Shown here in pieces: positions 14,040-27,668 of a stretch of DNA of 64,000 bases. The translations under genes and the position numbers were made by a program. The notes under the pieces are model-generated. The model worked only from the letters and a program-made list of their open reading frames with translations. It made no database searches and was not told the DNA's origin. Source of the DNA: Clostridiales bacterium (GTDB taxonomy: Bacteria; Bacillota; Clostridia; Christensenellales; UBA1242); contig SVHS01000002.1 of assembly GCA_015055745.1 (NCBI GenBank), positions 62,001-126,000 of the forward strand, in the 5' to 3' direction. The first letter of the stretch is position 1; each line of letters starts with the position of its first letter.

Positions 14040-16433
14040 ATGCGTAAAAAGAAATCTAATAAAAACAAATCTAGCGCTAGTATCTCTAGATTTAATCCAA
14101 AACCTAATGAAGGTCTGTCTCAAAAACAAATCTCACAGCGAACACAAGAAAATCTTGTAAATATTTCAAATATAAAGACTTCAAAAAGTATAGGTAGTAT
14201 TTTATTTAAAAATATTTTTACCTTCTTCAATATGACTTGTTTAGTGGTAGCACTGGCACTCATATCTGTGGGAGCTTTTTCTGATTTGCTATTTTTAGTC
14301 ATAGTGATATTAAATACTGTCATAGGCATAGTCCAAGAGATAAAAGCCAAAAAGACTATGGACAAGCTATCTCTCACAAATTCAAATTTTACAAAAGTAA
14401 TACGTGACAGTGAAGAACAAGAAATATACAAGACAGAAGTAGTGCTTGATGATGTGTTGGTACTAAATCCAGGTATGCAAATCGCTTGCGATAGTATCGT
14501 GATAGATGGACACGTAGAAGTAAATGAAAGTTTGCTCACCGGCGAGAGTCAGCCAGTAAAAAAAGATAAAGGTGATAGTTTGCTCGGTGGTAGCTTTATA
14601 TCTAGCGGTACTTGTCGAGCTAAAGTAAATAAAATAGGTAATGAAAATTATATTTCTCAGCTAAGTGAAAAAGCAAAATCTTTCAAGCAGGCTAAGAGTG
14701 AACTTTTGACCTCTCTTAGAAATTTAATAAAAATCATTACAGTATTTATGATACCTATCGCTATACTCATGCTATACAATAACTATACATACTACACCGC
14801 CAACCCAGCTGAAGAATATAGCACGTTATATATGGTCATCACAAAGACTAGTGGTTGTATTATCGCCATGATACCAGCAGGTATGTTCTTACTTACTTCG
14901 GTCGCTCTAGCTGTCAGTGTCATGAGACTGGCAAAAAAGAGGACATTGGTACAAGAATTATATTGTATAGAGATGCTAGCTAGGACAAATGTCCTTTGTC
15001 TAGACAAGACAGGTACTCTTACAAATGGCTCCATGAGTGTAAAAGATGTCGTCTTACTCGGCAAGAAGACCGAAAAAGATGTGGACAAAATTATTTCTTC
15101 TATGGTAAATGCATTTCATGATGCTAATCAGACTGCTCTAGCTCTAAAAGCATATTTTGGCAAGCCTAGCTACACTGCAGACAAATCTATACCTTTCTCA
15201 TCTGAGAGAAAGTTCATGGGTTGCAAATTCAGAAATGTGGGCGCATACAAATTAGGTGCTTACGAATATGTAATGGATAAGCCTACCGCAGAGATAAAGA
15301 AAATGGCTGAAGAGTATGCTCAAAATGGATACAGAGTACTCTTGCTTGCTGGCTGTGACAACAATTTTAGCAATACAAACTGTACTCCAGTAGCTTTGGT
15401 GCTACTCCAAGACAATATCAGAAAAGATGCACCAAAGACTATTGAATGGTTTAAGAAAAATGATGTAGATATCAAGATTATATCAGGAGACAATCCTGTC
15501 ACAGTAAGTGAAGTAGCTAGGCGAGTCGGTGTAGAAAATTATGATAAATATATTAGTTTACATGGTATGAGCAATACCGAAGTCATGGAAGCAGCTACAA
15601 AATATGCTATATTTGGTCGTGTAAGCCCTGAGCAAAAAGCAATACTAGTAAAAGCTCTCAAAGCACAAGGTAAGACAGTAGCTATGACTGGTGACGGTGT
15701 AAACGATATCCTTGCCCTTAAAGAAGCAGACTGCTCTATTGCAATAGCAGCTGGTAGTGACGCAGCACGTAGCGTAAGTCAGCTAGTACTATTGGATAGC
15801 AACTTTAGCTCTATGCCAAATGTAGTAGCTGAAGGTAGACGTGTGGTAAATAATATACAAAAATCATCATCACTTTTCCTAATGAAGACAATATTTGCTA
15901 TATGTATTTCATTATTTGTATTGTGTATGAATAAGACTTATCCTTTCTCACCTATACAGTTTATATTACTCGAGATGTTTGTCATAGGATTGCCGTCATT
16001 CTTCCTAGCGCTACAACCAAACATCAACCCTATCAAAGGAAAATTCTTATCCAATGTCGCTAAAAATACACTACCGGCTGGTATATGCTTGGTCGGGGTT
16101 ACCATAGCGATGTATGTATATCAAATGTTTACTGGTATCACTACTGAAGTGCTAGTCACCATGTCATCTATAGGTATCATAGTAGTCGGATTTATAGCAT
16201 TATTTAGAATGTGCAAGCCGTTTAATTGGTTTAAGTCCATCATGTATGTAGCATGTGCTGGCATATGTATAGCTTGTGTGATAGGATTATTTGATTTATT
16301 TAAATATGTACCTATATCTTACTATGACACATTATTCCTTATAGTAGTATGTCAAGCAAGCTATCCTGTATATATGGTACTAAACAAATTATTTGAGCTT
16401 TCTAGCAATACCGTACCTCCTACTGAATCGTGA
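14040..16433 (+). CDS. P-type cation-transporting ATPase (CtpE-like HAD-IC family)
   Basis: 797 residues from the ATG at 14040, preceded by GAGGG; the longer ORF runs back into the promoter. It is a membrane pump that uses ATP to move a cation. Hallmarks: actuator motif 'LLTGES' (about residue 165), phosphorylation site 'CLDKTGTLTNG' with Asp322, 'GDGVND' hinge (about residue 551), and the transmembrane layout with two helices before the actuator, two after, and six at the C terminus. The N-terminal 30 residues are highly basic. The overall pattern resembles CtpE-type pumps, for which calcium is a suggested substrate. The M4 motif reads 'MIPAGM' where many relatives have 'PEGL', so specificity may differ. 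No heavy-metal-binding CxxC domain is present. Confidence 0.92.
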   Translation: MRKKKSNKNKSSASISRFNPKPNEGLSQKQISQRTQENLVNISNIKTSKSIGSILFKNIFTFFNMTCLVVALALISVGAFSDLLFLVIVILNTVIGIVQEIKAKKTMDKLSLTNSNFTKVIRDSEEQEIYKTEVVLDDVLVLNPGMQIACDSIVIDGHVEVNESLLTGESQPVKKDKGDSLLGGSFISSGTCRAKVNKIGNENYISQLSEKAKSFKQAKSELLTSLRNLIKIITVFMIPIAILMLYNNYTYYTANPAEEYSTLYMVITKTSGCIIAMIPAGMFLLTSVALAVSVMRLAKKRTLVQELYCIEMLARTNVLCLDKTGTLTNGSMSVKDVVLLGKKTEKDVDKIISSMVNAFHDANQTALALKAYFGKPSYTADKSIPFSSERKFMGCKFRNVGAYKLGAYEYVMDKPTAEIKKMAEEYAQNGYRVLLLAGCDNNFSNTNCTPVALVLLQDNIRKDAPKTIEWFKKNDVDIKIISGDNPVTVSEVARRVGVENYDKYISLHGMSNTEVMEAATKYAIFGRVSPEQKAILVKALKAQGKTVAMTGDGVNDILALKEADCSIAIAAGSDAARSVSQLVLLDSNFSSMPNVVAEGRRVVNNIQKSSSLFLMKTIFAICISLFVLCMNKTYPFSPIQFILLEMFVIGLPSFFLALQPNINPIKGKFLSNVAKNTLPAGICLVGVTIAMYVYQMFTGITTEVLVTMSSIGIIVVGFIALFRMCKPFNWFKSIMYVACAGICIACVIGLFDLFKYVPISYYDTLFLIVVCQASYPVYMVLNKLFELSSNTVPPTES

Positions 16434-17259
16434 TATTATGTATCAGTTTATTTTGAATATCAAATATACAAATGCCCGCAAGGGCATTTTTGTTTATCAA
16501 GAAAAATTCACTTTCGCTCACAGGATACATCTCACAAAACTCCGGAAAAAACAATCCTATATCCTCCGCTTTGTCTAGCTTGATATTTTCATGCAAGAGT
16601 TCTTTAGCGTATTTAAAATTTTTCGCCCGCACACAATCTAAAAACACACACCCAACAAACTCATCTCTTAAGCACATATCTTCATCATCTAGATATACAA
16701 GATAGTCGTCATATTTTTTATCTTTTATATGCAAGACACGTCCATGATTTAACGCATCATACAGTCTAGTCATGAAATACTTTTCCTCTCCACTCTCATT
16801 GTATTCATCGTAATAATCAGCATACTTGAGCTTGTCGTCTTCAAGTATAATGATAAAATTTCTCTTACCCACAAAATATATAAGACACAGTTTACCCTGT
16901 ATTTCATGATGTGAATATTCCACACCGTCTACATATTTATCCACCACAATATCACCAGAGATAGTGAGTAATATCTTATCTGATAAGGAAAATAAAATCT
17001 CTTTTCCACTATGGCTTATTTTCACCACTCTTGTGCTATCCACATTGTATGGAAATAGAAAATAATAAATGTCCTGCTTGTACTCGATTTTCAACACATT
17101 TTTTTGTACATCACAGTCAAAAGAAAATGGCAATCCTCCACCCATCACAAGTGCATGAGATAGTCTTCCACTGATTTCATATTTTACATACGGATATATT
17201 TTTTCATACACTTCGTCTGCATAGATGGAGCACGCGAACTTTGAGATAAGATAATTCAT
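16420..17259 (-). CDS. Hypothetical protein
   Basis: 279 residues from the ATG at 17259; a TTG 24 nt further upstream is the alternative start, and neither has a convincing ribosome site. I do not recognise a family. The sequence is rich in Tyr, Asp and beta-strand-like alternation ('VLKIEYKQDIYYFLFPYN', 'GKLCLIYFVGKRNFIIILEDD') with no signal peptide or membrane span, suggesting a soluble beta-rich protein; the last third looks helical ('FKYAKELLHENIKLDKAEDIG'). It converges on the P-type ATPase, overlapping it by 14 nt, and its last 20 codons encode the ATPase terminator hairpin. Coding is supported by the sustained frame and normal composition, not homology. Confidence 0.7.
   Translation of the reverse strand: MNYLISKFACSIYADEVYEKIYPYVKYEISGRLSHALVMGGGLPFSFDCDVQKNVLKIEYKQDIYYFLFPYNVDSTRVVKISHSGKEILFSLSDKILLTISGDIVVDKYVDGVEYSHHEIQGKLCLIYFVGKRNFIIILEDDKLKYADYYDEYNESGEEKYFMTRLYDALNHGRVLHIKDKKYDDYLVYLDDEDMCLRDEFVGCVFLDCVRAKNFKYAKELLHENIKLDKAEDIGLFFPEFCEMYPVSESEFFLINKNALAGICIFDIQNKLIHNITIQ
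16471..16492 (+). terminator. Terminator of the P-type ATPase, embedded in the convergent gene
   Basis: AATGCCC-GCAA-GGGCATT followed by TTT lies 38 nt past the ATPase stop, inside the last codons of the opposite-strand gene. Confidence 0.8.
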
Positions 17260-17365
17260 ATAAATATTTATGTTAAGAAACAAAAAAACTTTCTATTTTA
17301 TATTTATTTACAATTTCACCCTACTTTCGCACGATAATAATTAGCCTATCGGGAATAATAAAATC

Positions 17366-17635
17366 ATGAACAAAATCCCAGAACATCAAAAAAATCAAAA
17401 CGCAAAGATTCACGTCATGCCACCTAGTATCACAGATGAAGATATCTCAGCCCTCTTTCATGGTATACTCAGCGTAGTCAAGAAGAAAATTGAACTAGAA
17501 GCTAGAGCTGAAATAATCAACATGAATGTAAATATGGAAAAACTACTACGTGAATTGAAAGAACGACAAGCCGAGTGTATCAGATTAAAAAATGAGATTT
17601 TGTATCTTAAATCTCAAATTCAAAATACTGATTAA
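17366..17635 (+). CDS. Small hypothetical coiled-coil protein
   Basis: 89 residues. The first 20 are polar, then 'ITDEDISALFHGILSVVKKKIE' leads into a long charged helix with heptad-like spacing ('MEKLLRELKERQAECIRLK', 'LYLKSQIQ') that predicts a coiled coil over about residues 45-87. No family recognised. The ribosome site is weak (GGGA about 16 nt upstream, nothing nearer). It lies 123 bp upstream of the DAC-like gene on the same strand, but that gene has its own promoter. It could be a small adaptor or cell-division-type coiled coil; this is speculation. Confidence 0.65.
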   Translation: MNKIPEHQKNQNAKIHVMPPSITDEDISALFHGILSVVKKKIELEARAEIINMNVNMEKLLRELKERQAECIRLKNEILYLKSQIQNTD

Positions 17636-17708
17636 TCGTTCATAATCATATATTTTTTCAATTTGTCAACTAATTTTTAAAAAAAATTAAAATTTTTTCT
17701 CAAAATAT

Positions 17709-17737
17709 TTGCATAATCTTTTAAAAACTGCTATATT
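17709..17737 (+). promoter_or_regulatory. Predicted promoter of the DAC-like gene
   Basis: TTGCAT (17709-17714), 17 bp, TATATT (17732-17737), 21 bp before the start codon. Confidence 0.55.
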
Positions 17738-17758
17738 GTTTTAAAAGAGTGGTGAATA

Positions 17759-18850
17759 ATGGAAGAAATGATTTTTTTCGACAATGCCAAAGAAAATGTG
17801 ACAAAATTCTTCGCGCAAGAGTTTGAAAATTTCCCAGCTCTACTTATGTCACATTTTTTAAATAAATTCAACGATATCATGAATTATCAAGAGGAAGGTA
17901 ATGTCATCAAGCCGAAGATTATCTTCACCGATAATATTGAAGCGCTCATTCGCTCTATTCCGAAGTCTCACTCTATGACAGTATTTGAAGACAATGAGGC
18001 GACGATGTTTAACTCTAGACTAAAGTCACTCCTTGCTATAGCAAAAAATGATTGGTGTATCTTTATCGACATCAAAGAAAACAAGATCAGCTACGGACTA
18101 GTAATGTCATTTACTAGTATTAAAGATAAAAATTTGCTTAGGACTATCGAAGAAAGCAATTCGTTGAAGGACAAGGCTAGCAAATTTCACTGTATACTTG
18201 CTAGACCACTAAACTTTTACTCCATGATGCTACACTCTATATCTGGCAATGACTTGATAGTGAACTTTTCTCTAGACAAGTCAAAATGTAATATTTTCAA
18301 TACAGAGATCAGAGAGTTTGTAGATGCGACTTTCTCAAAACTACGTACTACTCAAAGAAAACTACAAGATATGAAAAATATGTACCTAAACATATTTTCA
18401 AATGTACTCAGCTATGTCAATGGCTCTATATGCGTCATCGTGGACAAAGATTATAAAGACAATGGCCTATTTGAAGACGGTATTTGGCTAAAAGAACCTA
18501 TTAGCTTTAGCAAGCTATTTACTCAATCAAAAAGCTACAATGAAGAAAAACTACAAGCGTATGCCGACTTGTTTATGAATATGCTAAACTTTGATGGTAT
18601 CACTATCATAGACAATCTTGGTCGTATCAGAGCATACAATGTATTCGTCGAGCCAAACTCTAAAAAAGTCGGCTACATAGTCGGAGGAGCTAGGAAGCGT
18701 GCTGCATTCTATATCCTCAGCACAAAGAAAAAAGATATAGTGGGCGTATACTTCCAGTCTCATGAAGGCGAAGTATTCTTTCAAGAGATAGCTAAGAAAA
18801 TGCCAAGACTAAAAGCCACTAAAAAGAATGAAGAAAAAGAGAGTAATTAA
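17759..18850 (+). CDS. Protein with a DisA/DAC-like (diadenylate cyclase fold) C-terminal domain, probably degenerate
   Basis: 363 residues with no signal peptide or membrane span. From about residue 215 the order of motifs matches the DisA_N/DAC domain: 'NGSICVIV' (compare GALIVIE), a helix 'FSKLF', 'NFDGITIIDNLGRIRAY' with Asp279-Gly280 (compare HDGA..I..rI.aA), 'VGGARKRAAFYIL' at 309-320 (compare GTRHRAALG) and 'GVYFQSHEGEV' (compare SEETG.I). Catalytic RHR reads RKR and the Ala of DGA is Ile, so it may be a nucleotide-sensing relative rather than an active c-di-AMP synthase. The N-terminal 200 residues are unassigned. The stop codon lies in a palindrome shared with the convergent thioesterase. 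Assignment is by motif reading only. Confidence 0.62.
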   Translation: MEEMIFFDNAKENVTKFFAQEFENFPALLMSHFLNKFNDIMNYQEEGNVIKPKIIFTDNIEALIRSIPKSHSMTVFEDNEATMFNSRLKSLLAIAKNDWCIFIDIKENKISYGLVMSFTSIKDKNLLRTIEESNSLKDKASKFHCILARPLNFYSMMLHSISGNDLIVNFSLDKSKCNIFNTEIREFVDATFSKLRTTQRKLQDMKNMYLNIFSNVLSYVNGSICVIVDKDYKDNGLFEDGIWLKEPISFSKLFTQSKSYNEEKLQAYADLFMNMLNFDGITIIDNLGRIRAYNVFVEPNSKKVGYIVGGARKRAAFYILSTKKKDIVGVYFQSHEGEVFFQEIAKKMPRLKATKKNEEKESN

Positions 18851-18865
18851 CTCTCTTTTTTCTTA
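18834..18865. terminator. Bidirectional terminator containing both stop codons
   Basis: AAAAAGAGAG-TAATTAA-CTCTCTTTTTT is nearly a perfect palindrome. The TTAA at 18847-18850 is the TAA stop of both convergent genes. Confidence 0.85.
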
Positions 18866-19587
18866 TATTTTATGACAGCTCTAAATATTGTCCTATCTTG
18901 AGCCTTGCCTTCTATGTAAAAATAATTTTTTATTTTCTTTTTATAGACATCGATACAGTCTCCTTCATGACTTTCATTTACAAAATAAATCTCGTATTCT
19001 TTGATAGCCATGTTTTTCAATTCTTCCACACTAAAAGCATCTAGTGCCATATAATTGTACTTGAGATTATTGGTATGCATATTGACATCTATATCTGTGG
19101 CTCGTATTACTCTACTGTATGAGAGGTCTTTTTCTGCCACATCTTCTCGCATGTTTGTATACTCTGCCACCACTTCTTCCGTCTTTTGCATATCCAGATC
19201 TGGATAAACTATAGTGTTCATCTTCCTAATCTTGCGTGTATCAAAATCTAGACAACACCAATCAGCAGAGCATTTTACTTTTACACTGTTGCCTACTTTT
19301 ATCATACAGTCTCTCACTGCTCTTGCCATACCTAACTCATGAGTCCAAGTAATGACATTTGCTTTGTCTCCAGTCTTGACATCACCTTTTATGATGAGTT
19401 TCATCTTGGTCACCACCCAAAAAGCTCTACTCTTTTCTTCCATAGTCTTGTGGTCAAGACCAATGATGTTGGAATGATTGAAAGTAGCGACCTCCAACAG
19501 ACGCATTTGCTCTGTCAGAGGCACTACTTGATCAAAGTTTACCATGGTGTCATCTATAGTGATTGTTTCTTTATGCCAGTTTTTCAT
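18847..19587 (-). CDS. Acyl-ACP thioesterase family protein
   Basis: 246 residues, typical of bacterial acyl-ACP thioesterases (FatA/FatB-related, double hot-dog fold), which release fatty acids from acyl carrier protein in the cytoplasm. First hot-dog: 'FNHSNIIGLDHKTMEEKSRAFWV' (in part) and 'RAVRDCMI'. Second hot-dog carries the active-site pattern 'DIDVNMHTNNLKY' with Asp167, Asn169 and His171, as in the D-x-N-x-H-V-N-N motif of the family. The start ATG overlaps the stop of the upstream giant gene (TAATG on the minus strand), so translation is likely coupled. Why a thioesterase should be coupled to a surface protein is unclear. In Firmicutes these enzymes may tune membrane or released fatty acids. 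Confidence 0.88.
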   Translation of the reverse strand: MKNWHKETITIDDTMVNFDQVVPLTEQMRLLEVATFNHSNIIGLDHKTMEEKSRAFWVVTKMKLIIKGDVKTGDKANVITWTHELGMARAVRDCMIKVGNSVKVKCSADWCCLDFDTRKIRKMNTIVYPDLDMQKTEEVVAEYTNMREDVAEKDLSYSRVIRATDIDVNMHTNNLKYNYMALDAFSVEELKNMAIKEYEIYFVNESHEGDCIDVYKKKIKNYFYIEGKAQDRTIFRAVIKYKKKES

Positions 19588-22500
19588 TATCTAATCCTCA
19601 TCTTATTTCGTAATACTATTATCACCACAGTCACGGTCACTACTACCACCACCACTACCACAATGATCACGATAGCCCAGACGTTTAGAGGCTCTGTGAT
19701 AGTCACTTTGTAGTGATCCCAGATATTACCTGATCCACTTTGTAACTTGATATAATAATCTCCCGCGCCATTTTCCTTAAATGAGATAGTCTTTGTCTGT
19801 AGAATATTAGGTCGATTTTCTTCAGTGATATGTGCTACTTCCATACCATTGACATATACATAGCATTCACCTATCTGCTCGTATAGGATAGCTGGATTGA
19901 ACGATATAGTAAAGCTCTTATTTGTGCTTTCACCCTTAGCTAAAGAACAGTCAATCTTTGGACTTTCACTATTTAATGTAAATGCCAAATCAATAGCTCG
20001 TGATGGATAAAAGTCATCTTTTACCACATATGTGATAGTAAATGTGAGCTTGCCCGCTGAGACTTTTAGATTATTTGCGTTTTCCATGATCTTCTCATAT
20101 GTCACGAGCAAACCACCTATATCACTTGTCTTGATCATAGACAAGAAATCTTCAGTCACATCTAAGTTTGTAGGATTTTTCACCTTCACGATATCATAGC
20201 CACTGAGTGCTGTCAAATCAATAGACGGTCTAGCCTCTTTTACGTTTAAGATAGTAAATCTTAGCTCTTTTACCAAATCATATGTCTGAGTACCGTCCCA
20301 GAATTGTCCAGTGATAGTCACCTTGTATGTACCAAACTCTGAGAAAATATAAGGATTAGTCGTTTGCTTTACTGTGTAATGTTCACCATTTCTAGTAGCA
20401 GTCACAGATATGCTAGATGTCACATATTTTGTGCTAGCATACACTTTGATAGTCACAGCACTATTATAATAAGCATTGTCAATAGGAGCGTGCTCATAAG
20501 CATAAGGCTCTCCTGTCTTTTCATCGACTTTATCTACCACCGCCACCACGGCTACTTCTCTGAGTACCAATAGCTGTAATGTATCCAGTCCGTTAGAAAA
20601 TTTGTGTACATTGCCAGCCTTGTCCAAAAATCTAAATGTATAATCACCATTTCCGATGATAGTATATGAGAAAGTGAATATCTCATCATCAGGATTGACA
20701 TCAGTCATTACACATTCTTCTAAAAGAGTACCATTGTAGCTTACTTCCAAGATGAGCTGATTTTTATTTAATAGCACATCACCTGTATTCAAGTAAGTAC
20801 CATCTAGAGAAATAGTCACACTGCTGTCACTACCGATGATAGAGTAGCTAGTAGTATCATCTTTTAGATAATTATTTTGTGCTGTAGAATCTTCTGTCTT
20901 GACTACACGAAGATTGCTTACCAATTCATCAGTTTCTTTTACTCTCAATATACCTAGGTATACTGTGAAAGTCTCACCCTTACTGATCTTATACATAGAG
21001 AAAGTATAGTCATCGTTGTCCTCTATAATCTCTTCGCCAGAGTTAGTCACATTTTCACTATCACTAAGTACTACTTGCAATTCATCACTGCTGATATATA
21101 GTGGGATAGATGATTTGATATCTCCCCATAAATTCTCGATATTTGTTTGCATTTGAGATGTCAATTCTGATACTTTGTAGCTGGTATTAGAAAATACTGC
21201 CAATCCAGTTTCCACATTTCTTACATAATAGATTTGATTATTGACAGCCTGCACTTCAAATGCATACACTCTATTACCCACATATTTTGACTCTTCTTCA
21301 TTGGTCCATACTTCTACTACCAAGCGATAACGTCCACTACTTTCCGTAGCTGTATTGATGACATAGCTAGAGACATTATTTAGATTGATTTTTCTGTAGC
21401 CATTTTCTAGATTGGTGAAATCCTCCCTATACTCTTCCTTAATCTCATCATATAAGTAATACTTATAAACAAAATATTCACTATCTTCCTTCACCCAAGA
21501 TAAATTCATGATGCCTGATGATGTACTATCTGTCTGTACTGTCGTATCATAATACTCTGCATTATAATACTCGACCATATCCTTCTTTGTACCCTTGGTA
21601 TCTCTTAGATTTACTTCTCCGATAGTATTGTCTATAGTGATATTGTATATCTGTTCAGTTTCTTCGCCATACTTGATTATCACCTTAAATTGATATACTC
21701 CCTGATTTCCACTCAAGAAGTCTCCACCACAGAAAACAATATTCCCCTCATCATTGATTGTTATGTATTCTACATCGTTATTCCATGTGACCCAGTTTTC
21801 ACCATTTTTTCTATATTCAATACTATATGTAAACAACGTCTCGTCTACTGATAGTGTAGCACTGGTATAAGCGTAATAGTCATAATTTGAATGCATTGAT
21901 TCACCATTACCAGCAAACTCTATACTATAAAATTCTTTTCCAGCTGTGTTAAATCTCATTGACTTTGTATCGCCAGTGATATCTGTCATGGAGATTTGAT
22001 ATGTAGTATTTTCCAAACAAAGTAGTTCAGTTTTGCCCAATGGTGTAGTATCGTCTCCTAAACAATATTCTATATTACCATCATCATTGATATTTCCATT
22101 GTAGGTTTCTTCTACATCGTCACCGTCTTTATTTTTATATTTCACCACTATCTTAGTAGCATAGTACCAAATCTTATCTTCTTCGTTATATCTATTGGCT
22201 CCGTTTAGATTGATATAATATGTTTCTTTGTCATCTACAGTTTTCTTCTCTATCAATTGGTTAATATCTAAATCTTTAATCTTATTTGCGTCATATTTAT
22301 TGATAGAAATGCTTGGATATTTTGCTATGATATTTACTTTATCTTCTTTGGTCTCCACTCCTCTATAATAAATAGTAAAAGCATAGTTTCCTGGAGTAGC
22401 GTCATTCAACAACTTTTCAATATCTTTCTGTAAAACTTTTGTGTCTGTATTGGCAAATGTATTGATACCAGTTTTTTCACCAGTAGACGCATTTGATAAT

Positions 22501-25500
22501 TCTATCCTGATAAAACAATCATTTGTCAATGTATCTACATTTACACCATCTTCTTTTACTCCGAAGATATTATAAGTCTCTTTATTCATAGTAGTGCCGA
22601 TAGAGATATTTCCACTTTTACCAGTAGTCATGTTAGCTGTGATAGTACCAGAGAATGACGTCTCACTATCACTATAATACACGATATACTGAGTCTGATT
22701 TCCTGCTGAGTCTATTTCGATCACTTCATAGTAGCCAGCACCATCAAACAATGTGTCAAATGTCATATTGTCAGCCACTGTGACAGAAGTATAACCACTC
22801 CTATATGGTAATGACAAAATATACTTCGAGATATCACTGATAGCTTTACTTACATATATCTCTTTTATATCTTCAGTAGAGTAAGGTGTATCTTTAGTAG
22901 CTCTATAAGCAAATATTTTACCTATATCCTTAGTAGCTTCATAATATTTTGCATATTGATTGGTAAAGAATACTCGTGAATATGTCTCATGATAGCTATT
23001 TTCGTACATTGTATCAGTGCCAAATTGTGCATTGTAATATGATACTAAAGAGTCGCTGTCGTGTAAATTCTTCACATTGACGATCGGAGCTTCTCTATCT
23101 ATTGTGATGGTATATGTAGTCTCATAAAAATCTACAAGATTTCCACTTTCATCATAATAATGATAAGCCCTTAGAGTCGCATCATCTACTTTGTATCTAA
23201 CTTTTACCACATAATACAAAGGCTTAGTCAAGCTATCTTCATCTATATTTCCTACTTCATCTCGCAATATAGTATCTAGATATACACTATATCCACCATT
23301 TGTATTATTTACTACTACTTTTTGTCCATTTGATAAAGTACCAGCACCATTTAGAGTATACAAAGCTCCATCTTTCGTGGTGTCTATATAAGATTTGCTA
23401 CCATTGTTATAATGTTGCTCTATCACTAGATAGTCAGGGTCTACCTGAGCATACTCTGTCACGTCAGTCTTATATGCCGGTATATCCAGCTTGAGATATT
23501 CTTGACTGACACTTACATTGTACTGATAATTTTCTTCACCAGTAGTGCCCACTTTATAAGAGTCTACAGCTTGTAGATTGTCACCTCTATTTCCATTTGT
23601 TATCTCTATCTCAGGTCCAACCTCATCTTTTGTGATCTCGAAGCCTAAGTAGATTTTATTTGTATTCTTATCAGTATCCAATACATTATCTGATATAGCT
23701 ACAATATATCTACCTGGTAAATATATCCAATGAGCATTGTTTTGATCGATCACTAGTTTGTCCAATAAAGTGGTATTATGCTGATTTAGATAATTATATA
23801 TATTTACAGTGAAATATCCTTTTGTGAGTTCGCCGATATCTCCTTCGAAGATTTTTTCAGTATCACCAGTCACCTGCTTATGAATATCATCAAAGTACAC
23901 CGCGAAAGACAACCTACCTGCCTCATATCCAGCACTGCTCTCATTTTCAGCGCTAAAATATTTACCAGCTGGGATACTTAACGTAGCAGGAAGCTTATTT
24001 GTAGTGAGATAGATACCGTATTCTTGATCCACGATTTTGTCTGGAGCATAGCCAAATGTAGCAGTAGGCGCATTTGCTTGAGTAAAGTCATTGAAGCTAG
24101 TTTCTTGCTCCAATAGTCCTATCTGGATATTTTGACCTATACTTGTGCTGATAATGCCGTTTCTATCCACGATAAAATAATACTTTTTGGTTAGCTCATC
24201 GTGGTCAAGATGCGCTCCTTTATCTACATATGACCTTGTGACTACATATAGACCAGGCTGGGTATTCACATCACTGCCACCAAATGATACAAATCCTCTA
24301 TTTCCTACTTGCACTGCACCGTTTTGGAATAAGCTATTAGCAAACAAAGGCACATCTTTTCTACTTAGTGTATAAAAGTAAGTGTTTTTATTATATGAAG
24401 TAGTATCTAGAGTATAATAATCATATTTTACTTCTTTTACTTCGTAGTTTCCGCTACCGATATTCCACACGAACACCACTTTCGTTGAAGAAGTAGCTTT
24501 CGCCTCTGTGATACCACTGATTTCGCCATCGTCACTACCTGTGTATAATCTTTTTGCCTTTGCTGTATCCCCACCATTTTCATCTGTATCAGCCATAGAT
24601 ATATTGAGAGTATCTGAATAAAAAGCCATACCTCTAGCATTGTCTGTATTGATCTCTATCTCCATAAAAGACGATGAATCATGAGGCTCGATCACCATAG
24701 AGCTATAAGTATGATTTTCTCCTATGATATACAGTGTCCTCACATATGAAGTATTAGCGGATTTTTCATAATTCAATGTACCTTTGTTTGATGCGATCGC
24801 ATTGTCTATACTATCATCATCATATGCTACTATGCCTTTATTCACTACAGTAAGATAAATGTCATTACCATTCTTTTGGAATAATTTAGCTAAGGCATTT
24901 TTATTATTATGATTTCCTTCATAATATTTATCATCAAAGTTTAAATTGATGACCTTACTTATTTCATCATCTGCTGTAGTATTATCATCAGGTGTCACAC
25001 CTAGCTTAAATGCTTTGTATTTTGCTATGTCATAGTGAATTGTATCGTTAAACATTTGGAACTTTCCAGTCACAAATTCACTTTCGATATTGAAGTAAGC
25101 CTCAGTCCTATCTATCACTAGAGCATAATTGCAAGTATTTCCCGCCTGATCTGTAAGAGTGATAAAATATATACCCTGATCAAACAATATACAATCATCT
25201 TCTACCAATGCACGAGAGTCCGCTTTCCTAATCTCATACCCAGTCTGCACCTCTCCGAGTCCATAGTTTGTAGTAATCCAAGCCTCATTGTTTACATAAG
25301 TCGGTTTATCTGAGTTTACCTCGATAGGAGCATAAGAATATTTCGCAGTGATGAGCGCTCCACTAGCCTTATTGTCCCATAGCATGGTCACATAAGAGTC
25401 AGTGATAGCATTGGTGATAGGCACATAGTCTCCATATTTATCTTGAGCAAAAGCATAATGATTTTCACCATTGCTACTCTTCTCAGCTATCACATAAGGC

Positions 25501-27668
25501 ACTACATTGCTGATATCTTGCTTATCAATAGTAAACATCTTGTATGTAGCAGATTCGCCTTCACCTTGTAGCCTGATAAGGTATTGTACATATTGACCGT
25601 CTTGTACATTTACACCTATAGGACCACCATTTGATAAAGTATTTTCACTTAATGTCAACAGCTCTTCACGAGTCGCATATTTTTTGTTGGTGCTAGCATA
25701 ATAATATCCCTTGACTTCTTTTTCAAAAATCTTAGGCTCTTCCCATGTCACAGTCACGCTAGTATTAGTGTAGCCATCACCACCTACATGATTGCCCTTT
25801 GTATCCACTACAGAGACATCGATAGTCTTGGCAGTAAACTCAAATGCAAATACTTGTCTATATGTTTTATTTGCACCACTAGCCTCTTTTCCGACGATCA
25901 CATCTATAAATACCACATAATATCCAGTACTATTGAATGATGTCTGATTTGTATATCGATTTCCTACACCGTCACTAAAGTCAGACTTTGCGCTAAAGAT
26001 ATAGAAGCTTGTATCAGCAAACTCACTATTTCCAGATAGAGACAATGAACCTTGATTTGTCTTTGGGACATTTATCCCTGATATGTCTAATGTAGATATG
26101 CTTGTCACTATATTATCTTTAGTCAAGTTTTTAAGCTCATCATCGTCATAGCCCAATCCCCTTAGCTGAGCATTGATAAGCGAATCTTCACTATCTTGAT
26201 CATCGGCTACTCCATCGTCTAAGATCACTGTACCTTCACGTTTAGTAGAAGGAATAGTCGTATACATAAAGCCTATCTTCTCGTCCTTAAATGCTGACAT
26301 ATCGCGACTTCTTTCATAGCCATTTGGCACAAACAAATCCACACAATCACTAGCATGTGCACTAGTAGCCAATTCATAATACTTCATCTGCGCAGATTCA
26401 AAGCCAGCCTTAGAATAATCTAAATTAAATCCTTGGATATTCAATTTTTTATCCGGAATAGCCATATCGATATTTGGAGCATTATGAGCATTGTATCCAT
26501 CGTAAATATATTCAAAATGGAATAAGTAAGTACCCGGCTCAGTCAACATCACCGTAAGTAGATTTGTAGTATTATTATTTTTATATCTAGATAATTTTAA
26601 AGTTTCATATCTTGTACCTTCATTATTTGCAATTTCACAGCTCAGATTAGCTTCACCCATGCCTAGATTTTGAGTGACAGTAGTATTGTAAGTATATGTC
26701 GTCACTTTTCTATTTGCAGTATGAGTATAGCTCATCTTAAACTTTGTATAATCATATGTCAAAGTAGGATAAGATACAGTTTTGTCTGTATTGAAACCGT
26801 TTTGGCCGATATAATAGTTTACGTATTCTTCTCCACTAGCAGGAGTCTTGCTAAACTCCACCGAATTATTTTCGTCCCAGCCTAGGGTAGGCTCTGCCGT
26901 ATAAGTGACTCCGTCGATATTTACTTTTTCAGTATAAGAACTATTGAATATTAAATAAAAGCAGAATGTTTCTTCATATACTTGCTGATTGTTTTTAGAA
27001 TATGTAAATGTAAATTCATAGTATCCTTCACTAGCGCTATCTTGAGTGATAAGATATGCAAAGTCTAGGTAAAGAGCGCCACTAATACTCACATTTCTCA
27101 CTCCTGGTAAGTCCACATAGTCTAACTTTCCATCTCCATTTATATCACCCCTGTTGAGAGTTATATTAAGGGTAGTCAATTCAGCCGTGATAGTATTATC
27201 AGCTATCTTCACTTCTGTCTTAACAGAATCTTTCTTCACCACATACTGACCTATAGACACCATCACCGCTTCTTGAGTGTTTGTATTCGTTTCTGACACA
27301 TAATTATCTCCAGACTTGACATTGTCCAGCTTGATAAACTGTCCATTGTCCACAACGGTCTTTGAATCATCACCATTTGCAATGTCACTAAAAGAATAAG
27401 AATCATCGTAATTGTAGAAAGTATTATCTCCAGTAAAACTAGAGCTGGTATCATTTGATTTTACTCTAACCTTCTCGACTGACATAATGATATCGTCGCC
27501 GTACAACGCACTAAAAGTCTTACCATCTACTGTGGTGATAGTAGACGCCGGCGCTGCATACACTCCGTTTCCCTTTGGCTTCACACCAAAGCTCAAACAA
27601 ACACCAGCAGTAAACAATACTACTAATGTTAACATTAACTTTAGACTAAACTTAACTTTCCCCTTCAA
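19587..27668 (-). CDS. Giant membrane-anchored Ig-like repeat surface protein
   Basis: 2693 residues. The start is a TTG with AAGGGG 7 nt upstream; it gives a good signal peptide ('KFSLKLMLTLVVLFTAGV', cleavage near 'VYAAPA'). The C terminus has one membrane helix rich in valine ('VWAIVIIVVVVVVVV') followed by 'RNKMRIR', so the protein should be secreted and held by the membrane with the bulk outside. The body is a chain of beta-sandwich modules of roughly 100-150 residues marked by recurring 'D.AGN...Y.v.iD' strands (for example 'LTDQAGNTCNYALVIDR', 'IDSAGNQTQYIVYY'), typical of bacterial Ig-like adhesins. One EF-hand/dockerin-like loop 'DINGDGKLDYVDL' sits at about residue 176. No LPxTG is seen. 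Ligand unknown. It is cotranscribed with the thioesterase downstream. Confidence 0.85.
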   Translation of the reverse strand: MKGKVKFSLKLMLTLVVLFTAGVCLSFGVKPKGNGVYAAPASTITTVDGKTFSALYGDDIIMSVEKVRVKSNDTSSSFTGDNTFYNYDDSYSFSDIANGDDSKTVVDNGQFIKLDNVKSGDNYVSETNTNTQEAVMVSIGQYVVKKDSVKTEVKIADNTITAELTTLNITLNRGDINGDGKLDYVDLPGVRNVSISGALYLDFAYLITQDSASEGYYEFTFTYSKNNQQVYEETFCFYLIFNSSYTEKVNIDGVTYTAEPTLGWDENNSVEFSKTPASGEEYVNYYIGQNGFNTDKTVSYPTLTYDYTKFKMSYTHTANRKVTTYTYNTTVTQNLGMGEANLSCEIANNEGTRYETLKLSRYKNNNTTNLLTVMLTEPGTYLFHFEYIYDGYNAHNAPNIDMAIPDKKLNIQGFNLDYSKAGFESAQMKYYELATSAHASDCVDLFVPNGYERSRDMSAFKDEKIGFMYTTIPSTKREGTVILDDGVADDQDSEDSLINAQLRGLGYDDDELKNLTKDNIVTSISTLDISGINVPKTNQGSLSLSGNSEFADTSFYIFSAKSDFSDGVGNRYTNQTSFNSTGYYVVFIDVIVGKEASGANKTYRQVFAFEFTAKTIDVSVVDTKGNHVGGDGYTNTSVTVTWEEPKIFEKEVKGYYYASTNKKYATREELLTLSENTLSNGGPIGVNVQDGQYVQYLIRLQGEGESATYKMFTIDKQDISNVVPYVIAEKSSNGENHYAFAQDKYGDYVPITNAITDSYVTMLWDNKASGALITAKYSYAPIEVNSDKPTYVNNEAWITTNYGLGEVQTGYEIRKADSRALVEDDCILFDQGIYFITLTDQAGNTCNYALVIDRTEAYFNIESEFVTGKFQMFNDTIHYDIAKYKAFKLGVTPDDNTTADDEISKVINLNFDDKYYEGNHNNKNALAKLFQKNGNDIYLTVVNKGIVAYDDDSIDNAIASNKGTLNYEKSANTSYVRTLYIIGENHTYSSMVIEPHDSSSFMEIEINTDNARGMAFYSDTLNISMADTDENGGDTAKAKRLYTGSDDGEISGITEAKATSSTKVVFVWNIGSGNYEVKEVKYDYYTLDTTSYNKNTYFYTLSRKDVPLFANSLFQNGAVQVGNRGFVSFGGSDVNTQPGLYVVTRSYVDKGAHLDHDELTKKYYFIVDRNGIISTSIGQNIQIGLLEQETSFNDFTQANAPTATFGYAPDKIVDQEYGIYLTTNKLPATLSIPAGKYFSAENESSAGYEAGRLSFAVYFDDIHKQVTGDTEKIFEGDIGELTKGYFTVNIYNYLNQHNTTLLDKLVIDQNNAHWIYLPGRYIVAISDNVLDTDKNTNKIYLGFEITKDEVGPEIEITNGNRGDNLQAVDSYKVGTTGEENYQYNVSVSQEYLKLDIPAYKTDVTEYAQVDPDYLVIEQHYNNGSKSYIDTTKDGALYTLNGAGTLSNGQKVVVNNTNGGYSVYLDTILRDEVGNIDEDSLTKPLYYVVKVRYKVDDATLRAYHYYDESGNLVDFYETTYTITIDREAPIVNVKNLHDSDSLVSYYNAQFGTDTMYENSYHETYSRVFFTNQYAKYYEATKDIGKIFAYRATKDTPYSTEDIKEIYVSKAISDISKYILSLPYRSGYTSVTVADNMTFDTLFDGAGYYEVIEIDSAGNQTQYIVYYSDSETSFSGTITANMTTGKSGNISIGTTMNKETYNIFGVKEDGVNVDTLTNDCFIRIELSNASTGEKTGINTFANTDTKVLQKDIEKLLNDATPGNYAFTIYYRGVETKEDKVNIIAKYPSISINKYDANKIKDLDINQLIEKKTVDDKETYYINLNGANRYNEEDKIWYYATKIVVKYKNKDGDDVEETYNGNINDDGNIEYCLGDDTTPLGKTELLCLENTTYQISMTDITGDTKSMRFNTAGKEFYSIEFAGNGESMHSNYDYYAYTSATLSVDETLFTYSIEYRKNGENWVTWNNDVEYITINDEGNIVFCGGDFLSGNQGVYQFKVIIKYGEETEQIYNITIDNTIGEVNLRDTKGTKKDMVEYYNAEYYDTTVQTDSTSSGIMNLSWVKEDSEYFVYKYYLYDEIKEEYREDFTNLENGYRKINLNNVSSYVINTATESSGRYRLVVEVWTNEEESKYVGNRVYAFEVQAVNNQIYYVRNVETGLAVFSNTSYKVSELTSQMQTNIENLWGDIKSSIPLYISSDELQVVLSDSENVTNSGEEIIEDNDDYTFSMYKISKGETFTVYLGILRVKETDELVSNLRVVKTEDSTAQNNYLKDDTTSYSIIGSDSSVTISLDGTYLNTGDVLLNKNQLILEVSYNGTLLEECVMTDVNPDDEIFTFSYTIIGNGDYTFRFLDKAGNVHKFSNGLDTLQLLVLREVAVVAVVDKVDEKTGEPYAYEHAPIDNAYYNSAVTIKVYASTKYVTSSISVTATRNGEHYTVKQTTNPYIFSEFGTYKVTITGQFWDGTQTYDLVKELRFTILNVKEARPSIDLTALSGYDIVKVKNPTNLDVTEDFLSMIKTSDIGGLLVTYEKIMENANNLKVSAGKLTFTITYVVKDDFYPSRAIDLAFTLNSESPKIDCSLAKGESTNKSFTISFNPAILYEQIGECYVYVNGMEVAHITEENRPNILQTKTISFKENGAGDYYIKLQSGSGNIWDHYKVTITEPLNVWAIVIIVVVVVVVVTVTVVIIVLRNKMRIR

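Follow-up and report, generated by a model that had tools for sequence, protein, structure and literature searches.

The window analyzed here, a stretch of 64,000 nucleotides from contig SVHS01000002.1 (assembly GCA_015055745.1), belongs to a Christensenellales genome of ~0.88 Mb in 7 contigs, from a genus that includes Candidatus Onthoplasma. An ordinary core locus within it carries a gene for a protein resembling diadenylate cyclases (DAC), here termed DACL, preceded by a gene for a small coiled-coil protein; both open reading frames exist as an earlier sequence-only reading of this DNA had described them (Table 1). The gap between the two genes holds a possible promoter, though matches to this consensus occur at a rate not above chance, and DACL ends in a terminator-like hairpin that was seen on both strands and could also be used by a converging thioesterase gene. 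DACL is present in a single copy in all 34 genomes of the window genus and in 19 of the 42 sampled genera of the family, and it is under strong purifying selection (dN of about 0.1 to 0.18, with dS of 1.8 to 2.8 or saturated).

The coiled-coil gene was kept beside DACL in about 26 loci of the genus, which upholds the adjacency noted by the sequence-only reading, but other genera lack it at this position and have a different gene beside DACL. The strongly conserved head of the protein was likewise seen only in the window genus. We therefore rejected it as the functional partner of DACL and regard it as a genus-level neighbor that lies outside the two-gene cassette described below. Two minus-strand genes are also recurrent at this locus, one for a 287-residue protein next to DACL in 29 genus loci and one for a giant protein, predicted to be secreted or anchored, kept at the same place in 28.

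Table 1. Features of the DACL locus in window coordinates; residue conservation was counted over 69 members of the DACL family.
Feature	Position	Strand	Remarks
287-aa protein gene	16420-17283	-	No Pfam or NCBIfam match
Small coiled-coil protein gene	17366..17635	+	89 aa; motif MPPxITDxDIxALFxG
Possible sigma-70-type promoter	17708..17737	+	In the 123-bp gap 5' of DACL; consensus match, rate not above chance
DACL (DAC-like protein) gene	17759..18850	+	363 aa; ORF
N-terminal domain, residues 1-196	17759..18346	+	AlphaFold pLDDT 87
YxEEG signature, residues 43-47	17885..17899	+	E45 and E46 invariant, also in Vibrio, Agrobacterium and prophage relatives
DAC-like domain, residues 197-345	18347..18793	+	Foldseek; Pfam DAC matches in orthologs
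DGI (= DGA), residues 279-281	18593..18601	+	D and G 69/69; I 66/69
GGARKRAA (= GxRHRxA), residues 309-316	18683..18706	+	R312, R314 and A311 69/69; position 313 K/R
SHEGE (= SEE), residues 334-338	18758..18772	+	S334 69/69; position 336 acidic (E/D) 69/69
Terminator-like hairpin, DACL end	18833..18861	+	3 found vs 0.5 expected
Giant protein gene	19587-27668	-	2693 aa; predicted secreted or anchored; C-terminal membrane segment

Domain architecture and active-site residues of DACL

DAC enzymes are known as the makers of the housekeeping messenger c-di-AMP. The C-terminal ~150 residues of DACL follow the DAC motif order, with GSICVIV at the position of GALI, NFDGI at DGA, GGARKRAA at GTRHRAA, and FQSHEGE at VSEE. 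Searched alone against Pfam, NCBIfam, and PDB sequences, the window protein found nothing convincing, so its homology to DAC is visible only through its family or its fold. It does not reach the curated Pfam cutoff, and no genome of its genus gives a Pfam DAC match; among the 69 DACL orthologs, 22 matched Pfam DAC (PF02457) weakly (best E value, 4.1e-5), and no other family recurred comparably in that search. An hhalign comparison of the DACL family with CdaA proteins of the same order was also weak (E value, 0.004) and paired DGI with the CdaA DGA and GGARKRAA with LGTRHRAA. When the AlphaFold model (pLDDT, 85.6; pTM, 0.82) was compared to the PDB with Foldseek, the first 17 matches were all DisA, DacA, or CdaA chains (probability, 0.99 to 1.00; best E value, 2.7e-4) and the next match followed at an E value of 0.42; TM-scores were low, in part because the query was the full-length protein. 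A comparison with the viral fold library found nothing. The motif order claimed by the sequence-only reading is thus borne out by the four motifs, by Pfam, and by Foldseek, and the comparison with DisA and CdaA that it had proposed found the DAC fold in the model, with DisA/CdaA structures as its only confident PDB matches, confirming DACL as a real but divergent member of the DAC superfamily and a relative of the enzymes that make c-di-AMP.

The N-terminal ~200 residues, left unassigned by the earlier reading, matched nothing in the PDB by Foldseek (best E value, 0.28). We considered an internal duplication in which this domain would be a second DAC, but although the order of secondary-structure elements is alike, hhalign of the two halves gave an E value of 0.25 and Foldseek of the N-terminal domain found no DAC. 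A signature of Y-x-E-E-G followed by P, W, and Y-G is nearly invariant in the family, and its Glu-Glu, Pro, Trp, and Gly are kept in plasmid and prophage relatives; the N-terminal domain is therefore a defining part of DACL. It stands where CdaA has transmembrane helices and CdaS short helices, and whereas DisA consists of an N-terminal DAC domain, a linker, and a C-terminal helix-hairpin-helix, the DAC domain of DACL is C terminal, with nothing beyond it except a low-confidence tail. DACL further differs from CdaA in its genomic setting, as it does not lie in a cdaA-cdaR locus and has different neighbors. It is a distinct family of the DAC superfamily with a diagnostic N-terminal domain, and annotation as a degenerate DAC needs revision.

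DACL shares with DisA, CdaA, and CdaS the C-terminal fold, the Asp-Gly pair, both Arg residues of RHR, the phosphate-binding Ser, the acidic metal ligand, and the order of the motifs, but it has DGI for DGA, A-R-K-R for T-R-H-R, and S-[HQ]-[ED]-G for SEE. The two replacements noted from the window protein proved to be family traits: intact RHR is absent, with RKR or RRR in 69/69 members, and intact DGA is rare (2 members, compared to 66 with DGI and 1 with DGV). The DAC Thr is Ala in every member. The word "degenerate" was nevertheless too strong, given that 69/69 members keep the catalytic Asp (Asp279, with the adjoining Gly280), both Arg residues, the Ser, and an acidic metal ligand, and conservation within the protein is highest at the nucleotide-pocket residues. 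The Asp, both Arg residues, and the Ser are also invariant in the Vibrio, Agrobacterium, and prophage relatives, and the center of RxR in distant relatives is Lys, Ser, or Arg.

In CdaA, ATP is contacted by the Asp of DGA (ribose) and by Thr-Arg-His and Ser (phosphates), and the last Glu of SEE binds the metal (PMC7288161). Replacement of RHR by AAA abolishes the activity of DacA and CdaS, and DGA-to-AAA mutants are likewise inactive (PMC3328451, PMC4568413). In the literature searched we found no published data on substitutions of the single His of RHR, and catalysis by DACL is for that reason neither shown nor excluded. Thermotoga maritima DisA carrying D75N was crystallized with product (PDB 4yxm), and the invariant Asp of DACL therefore argues for chemistry over mere binding. 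Judged by its residues, the active site appears modified rather than wrecked; nucleotide binding is a well-supported prediction from the residues kept, and the overall pattern is no less compatible with an altered enzyme than with an inactive sensor.

A mobile two-gene cassette and its hosts

A first suggestion that DACL is confined to Christensenellales was overturned by searches of viral contigs and plasmids. Full-length relatives with 25 to 30% identity to the window protein occur on prophage-type Firmicute contigs (L165, with 30% identity, L166, and L187), on a plasmid of Vibrio sp. dhg (26%), and on an Agrobacterium plasmid (25%). Neither DACL nor its partner was matched in E. coli genomes and phage records, and among 399 genomes sampled from the phylum, only the window genome itself gave a match. 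The neighborhood survey that the sequence-only reading had proposed revealed this partner, a protein of ~430 to 470 residues encoded by the next gene, adjacent or overlapping, in all plasmid and prophage-contig loci; DACL is immediately followed by this gene on both plasmids and in L165, L186, and L187. The same gene directly follows DACL in 20 Christensenellales loci, and the partners inside and outside this order are homologous (BLASTP E value, 1e-34). In a search of 96 family genomes we recovered 8 convincing partner matches, all adjoining DACL and none in the window genus. The informative neighbor was thus invisible to the earlier reading because it is missing from the window.

On plasmids of Streptomyces, Rhodococcus, Acinetobacter, Bacillus, and enterobacteria, relatives of the partner are encoded without DACL. 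One lone relative of 476 residues, annotated as hypothetical and bearing an xNFYNEP motif (L189:4893-6323, plus strand; NZ_KM023153.1 and about 50 enterobacterial plasmids), is widespread on conjugative plasmids of E. coli, Shigella, and Klebsiella; in the single record inspected, DACL is not next to it. On the Vibrio plasmid, a 204-residue protein with membrane segments is encoded directly abutting the partner (L167:3225-3839, plus strand), a possible third component of the cassette in that host. Within Christensenellales, one clade holds the DACL-partner pair in a chromosomal sepF neighborhood (L124, L126, L132, L141, and similar loci), and in another DACL comes after pheS-pheT; operon links to pheST, sepF, or divIC-like genes were rejected, each being confined to one clade.

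Three of the four cassettes outside Christensenellales lie within ~5 kb of CBASS or restriction-modification genes, a sample (n = 4) too small for statistics. A divergent CBASS-type cyclase and a phospholipase lie 0.3 kb from the Agrobacterium cassette, and BsuBI/PstI restriction-modification genes lie within 2 to 5 kb of that in Vibrio; the L187 cassette has a TdeIII endonuclease, a C5 methylase, and a PDC-S02 protein upstream and AimR downstream, and the L165 cassette is preceded by an HTH-IrrE gene and followed by an integrase. Like CBASS and other anti-phage systems that signal with nucleotides, the cassette pairs, in a small mobile operon, a protein resembling a nucleotide synthase with a second protein and lies in apparent defense islands, and the Agrobacterium copy itself adjoins a CBASS-type pair; unlike in CBASS, the cyclase fold is DAC rather than CD-NTase, no PADLOC model matches DACL or the partner, and the window copy is partnerless. 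No paper on DAC-based defense or DAC-derived sensors was found in the literature searched. Only these four loci support a link to defense islands, and two of them sit on long, uncertain branches; we consider DACL to be probably, by origin, the first gene of a mobile, defense-associated two-gene cassette.

In a midpoint-rooted tree with very long Vibrio and Agrobacterium branches, the Christensenellales DACLs form one group (97/92) apart from the cassettes used as outgroups. Lineages that have a partner diverge early, and those without one, the window genus among them, occupy nested positions. The simplest reading is one acquisition of the cassette in this family followed by loss of the partner, and an origin from the cassette is better supported than replacement of CdaA.

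c-di-AMP is usually essential in Bacillota. The whole family, with genomes of ~1 Mb, nevertheless appears to be without the tested parts of this system, having apparently lost DAC, CdaR, PstA, the riboswitch, and a GdpP-sized DHH protein. Of 24 genomes belonging to the other families of Christensenellales, 21 have canonical DAC, compared to 0/36 sampled family members, and a wider sample of 98 family genomes yielded a single instance, in a genome with 4% contamination. PstA and YbbR (CdaR) were each absent from the 36 family genomes and present in 9 of the 24 elsewhere in the order, and the ydaO c-di-AMP riboswitch was absent from all 96 family genomes searched. The window genus has no DHH protein of GdpP size (~650 residues); a hidden GdpP was rejected in that the DHH matches are of RecJ size (~800 residues) or NrnA size (~330 residues). 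About half of the genera in the family are without both DACL and canonical DAC. As far as the tested parts go, the family has lost the known c-di-AMP system.

Enzyme, receptor, or scaffold

We favor, with a probability of about 0.5, a reading in which DACL is the domesticated, partnerless part of a mobile DAC-type nucleotide-signaling cassette and has kept synthase chemistry. A cassette of DACL and an adjoining or overlapping partner of ~430 residues, carried on plasmids and prophages outside Christensenellales, would have been taken up, most simply once, by the family with ~1-Mb genomes; in the lineage of the window genus the partner would then have been lost and DACL kept as a vertically inherited core gene. 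The Asp, Arg, Arg, Ser, and acidic residue kept in the C-terminal domain may bind ATP or a similar nucleotide; in a face-to-face dimer, nucleotidyl transfer would most likely be retained and give a di-adenylate-type signal, and the N-terminal YxEEG domain could serve to detect the trigger or to control the active site. The partner would act as the effector within the cassette, a role that is a guess because this protein could be assigned to no fold or family and is also encoded by itself on plasmids, and in Onthoplasma the signal, if made, would need another receptor. Several considerations weigh against this reading: the change of RHR to RKR together with the invariant Thr-to-Ala replacement could abolish catalysis, the tested c-di-AMP receptors are absent from the genus, and the tie to defense islands comes from the four loci above.

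The strongest alternative, which we consider possible but clearly less probable, is that DACL is a noncatalytic receptor, in which ATP, c-di-AMP, or a linear dinucleotide occupies the altered pocket and the N-terminal domain passes the bound state on. Both classical motifs are altered in nearly every DACL, the phosphate-binding Ser and both Arg residues are kept, and canonical cyclases and tested c-di-AMP effectors are absent from the family, so that the precise chemistry would be free to change. DAC-derived sensor domains named by comparative genomics likewise combine altered DAC motifs with an N-terminal domain, a likeness to DACL by description only, as DACL matched no such Pfam model. A receptor would not, however, obviously need the ribose-binding Asp and acidic metal ligand that are invariant even in very divergent members, and should the family make no c-di-AMP, a ligand of that type would be lacking. 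The nucleotide binding proposed by the sequence-only reading therefore gains from the residues kept, its purely sensory role is less well supported given the invariant catalytic residues, and DACL appears more likely to be an enzyme than a pure sensor.

That DACL is instead a fully canonical though divergent diadenylate cyclase, replacing CdaA and feeding undiscovered c-di-AMP receptors, seems unlikely to us. CdaA has been lost family-wide while about half of the genera keep DACL with its active-site residues largely intact, but the other half have neither protein, the window genus is without PstA, YbbR/CdaR, the ydaO riboswitch, and a GdpP-sized DHH protein, and a mobile-cassette origin is better supported. 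Most improbable of all is a role for the DAC fold as a mere scaffold in a process unrelated to nucleotides, such as division or RNA metabolism; in several genera DACL does have sepF or divIC-like genes nearby or follows pheST, but these neighbors vary by genus, which fits insertion into different operons, and the strongest conservation lies at the nucleotide pocket.

A bolder and rather doubtful extension of the favored reading, domestication from a cassette, is that DACL and its partner constitute an undescribed mobile anti-phage system, in which the dinucleotide alarm of a DAC-type enzyme triggers a helical partner, and that a gut lineage that had lost c-di-AMP signaling took over only the enzyme, to make a housekeeping signal. 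If this were true, it would add one more nucleotide-synthase fold to bacterial immunity, DAC rather than CD-NTase. The two-gene cassette is small enough for direct tests in laboratory strains, and the fixation of DACL in a lineage without known c-di-AMP machinery provides a clean setting for examining the role of a DAC protein without c-di-AMP receptors.
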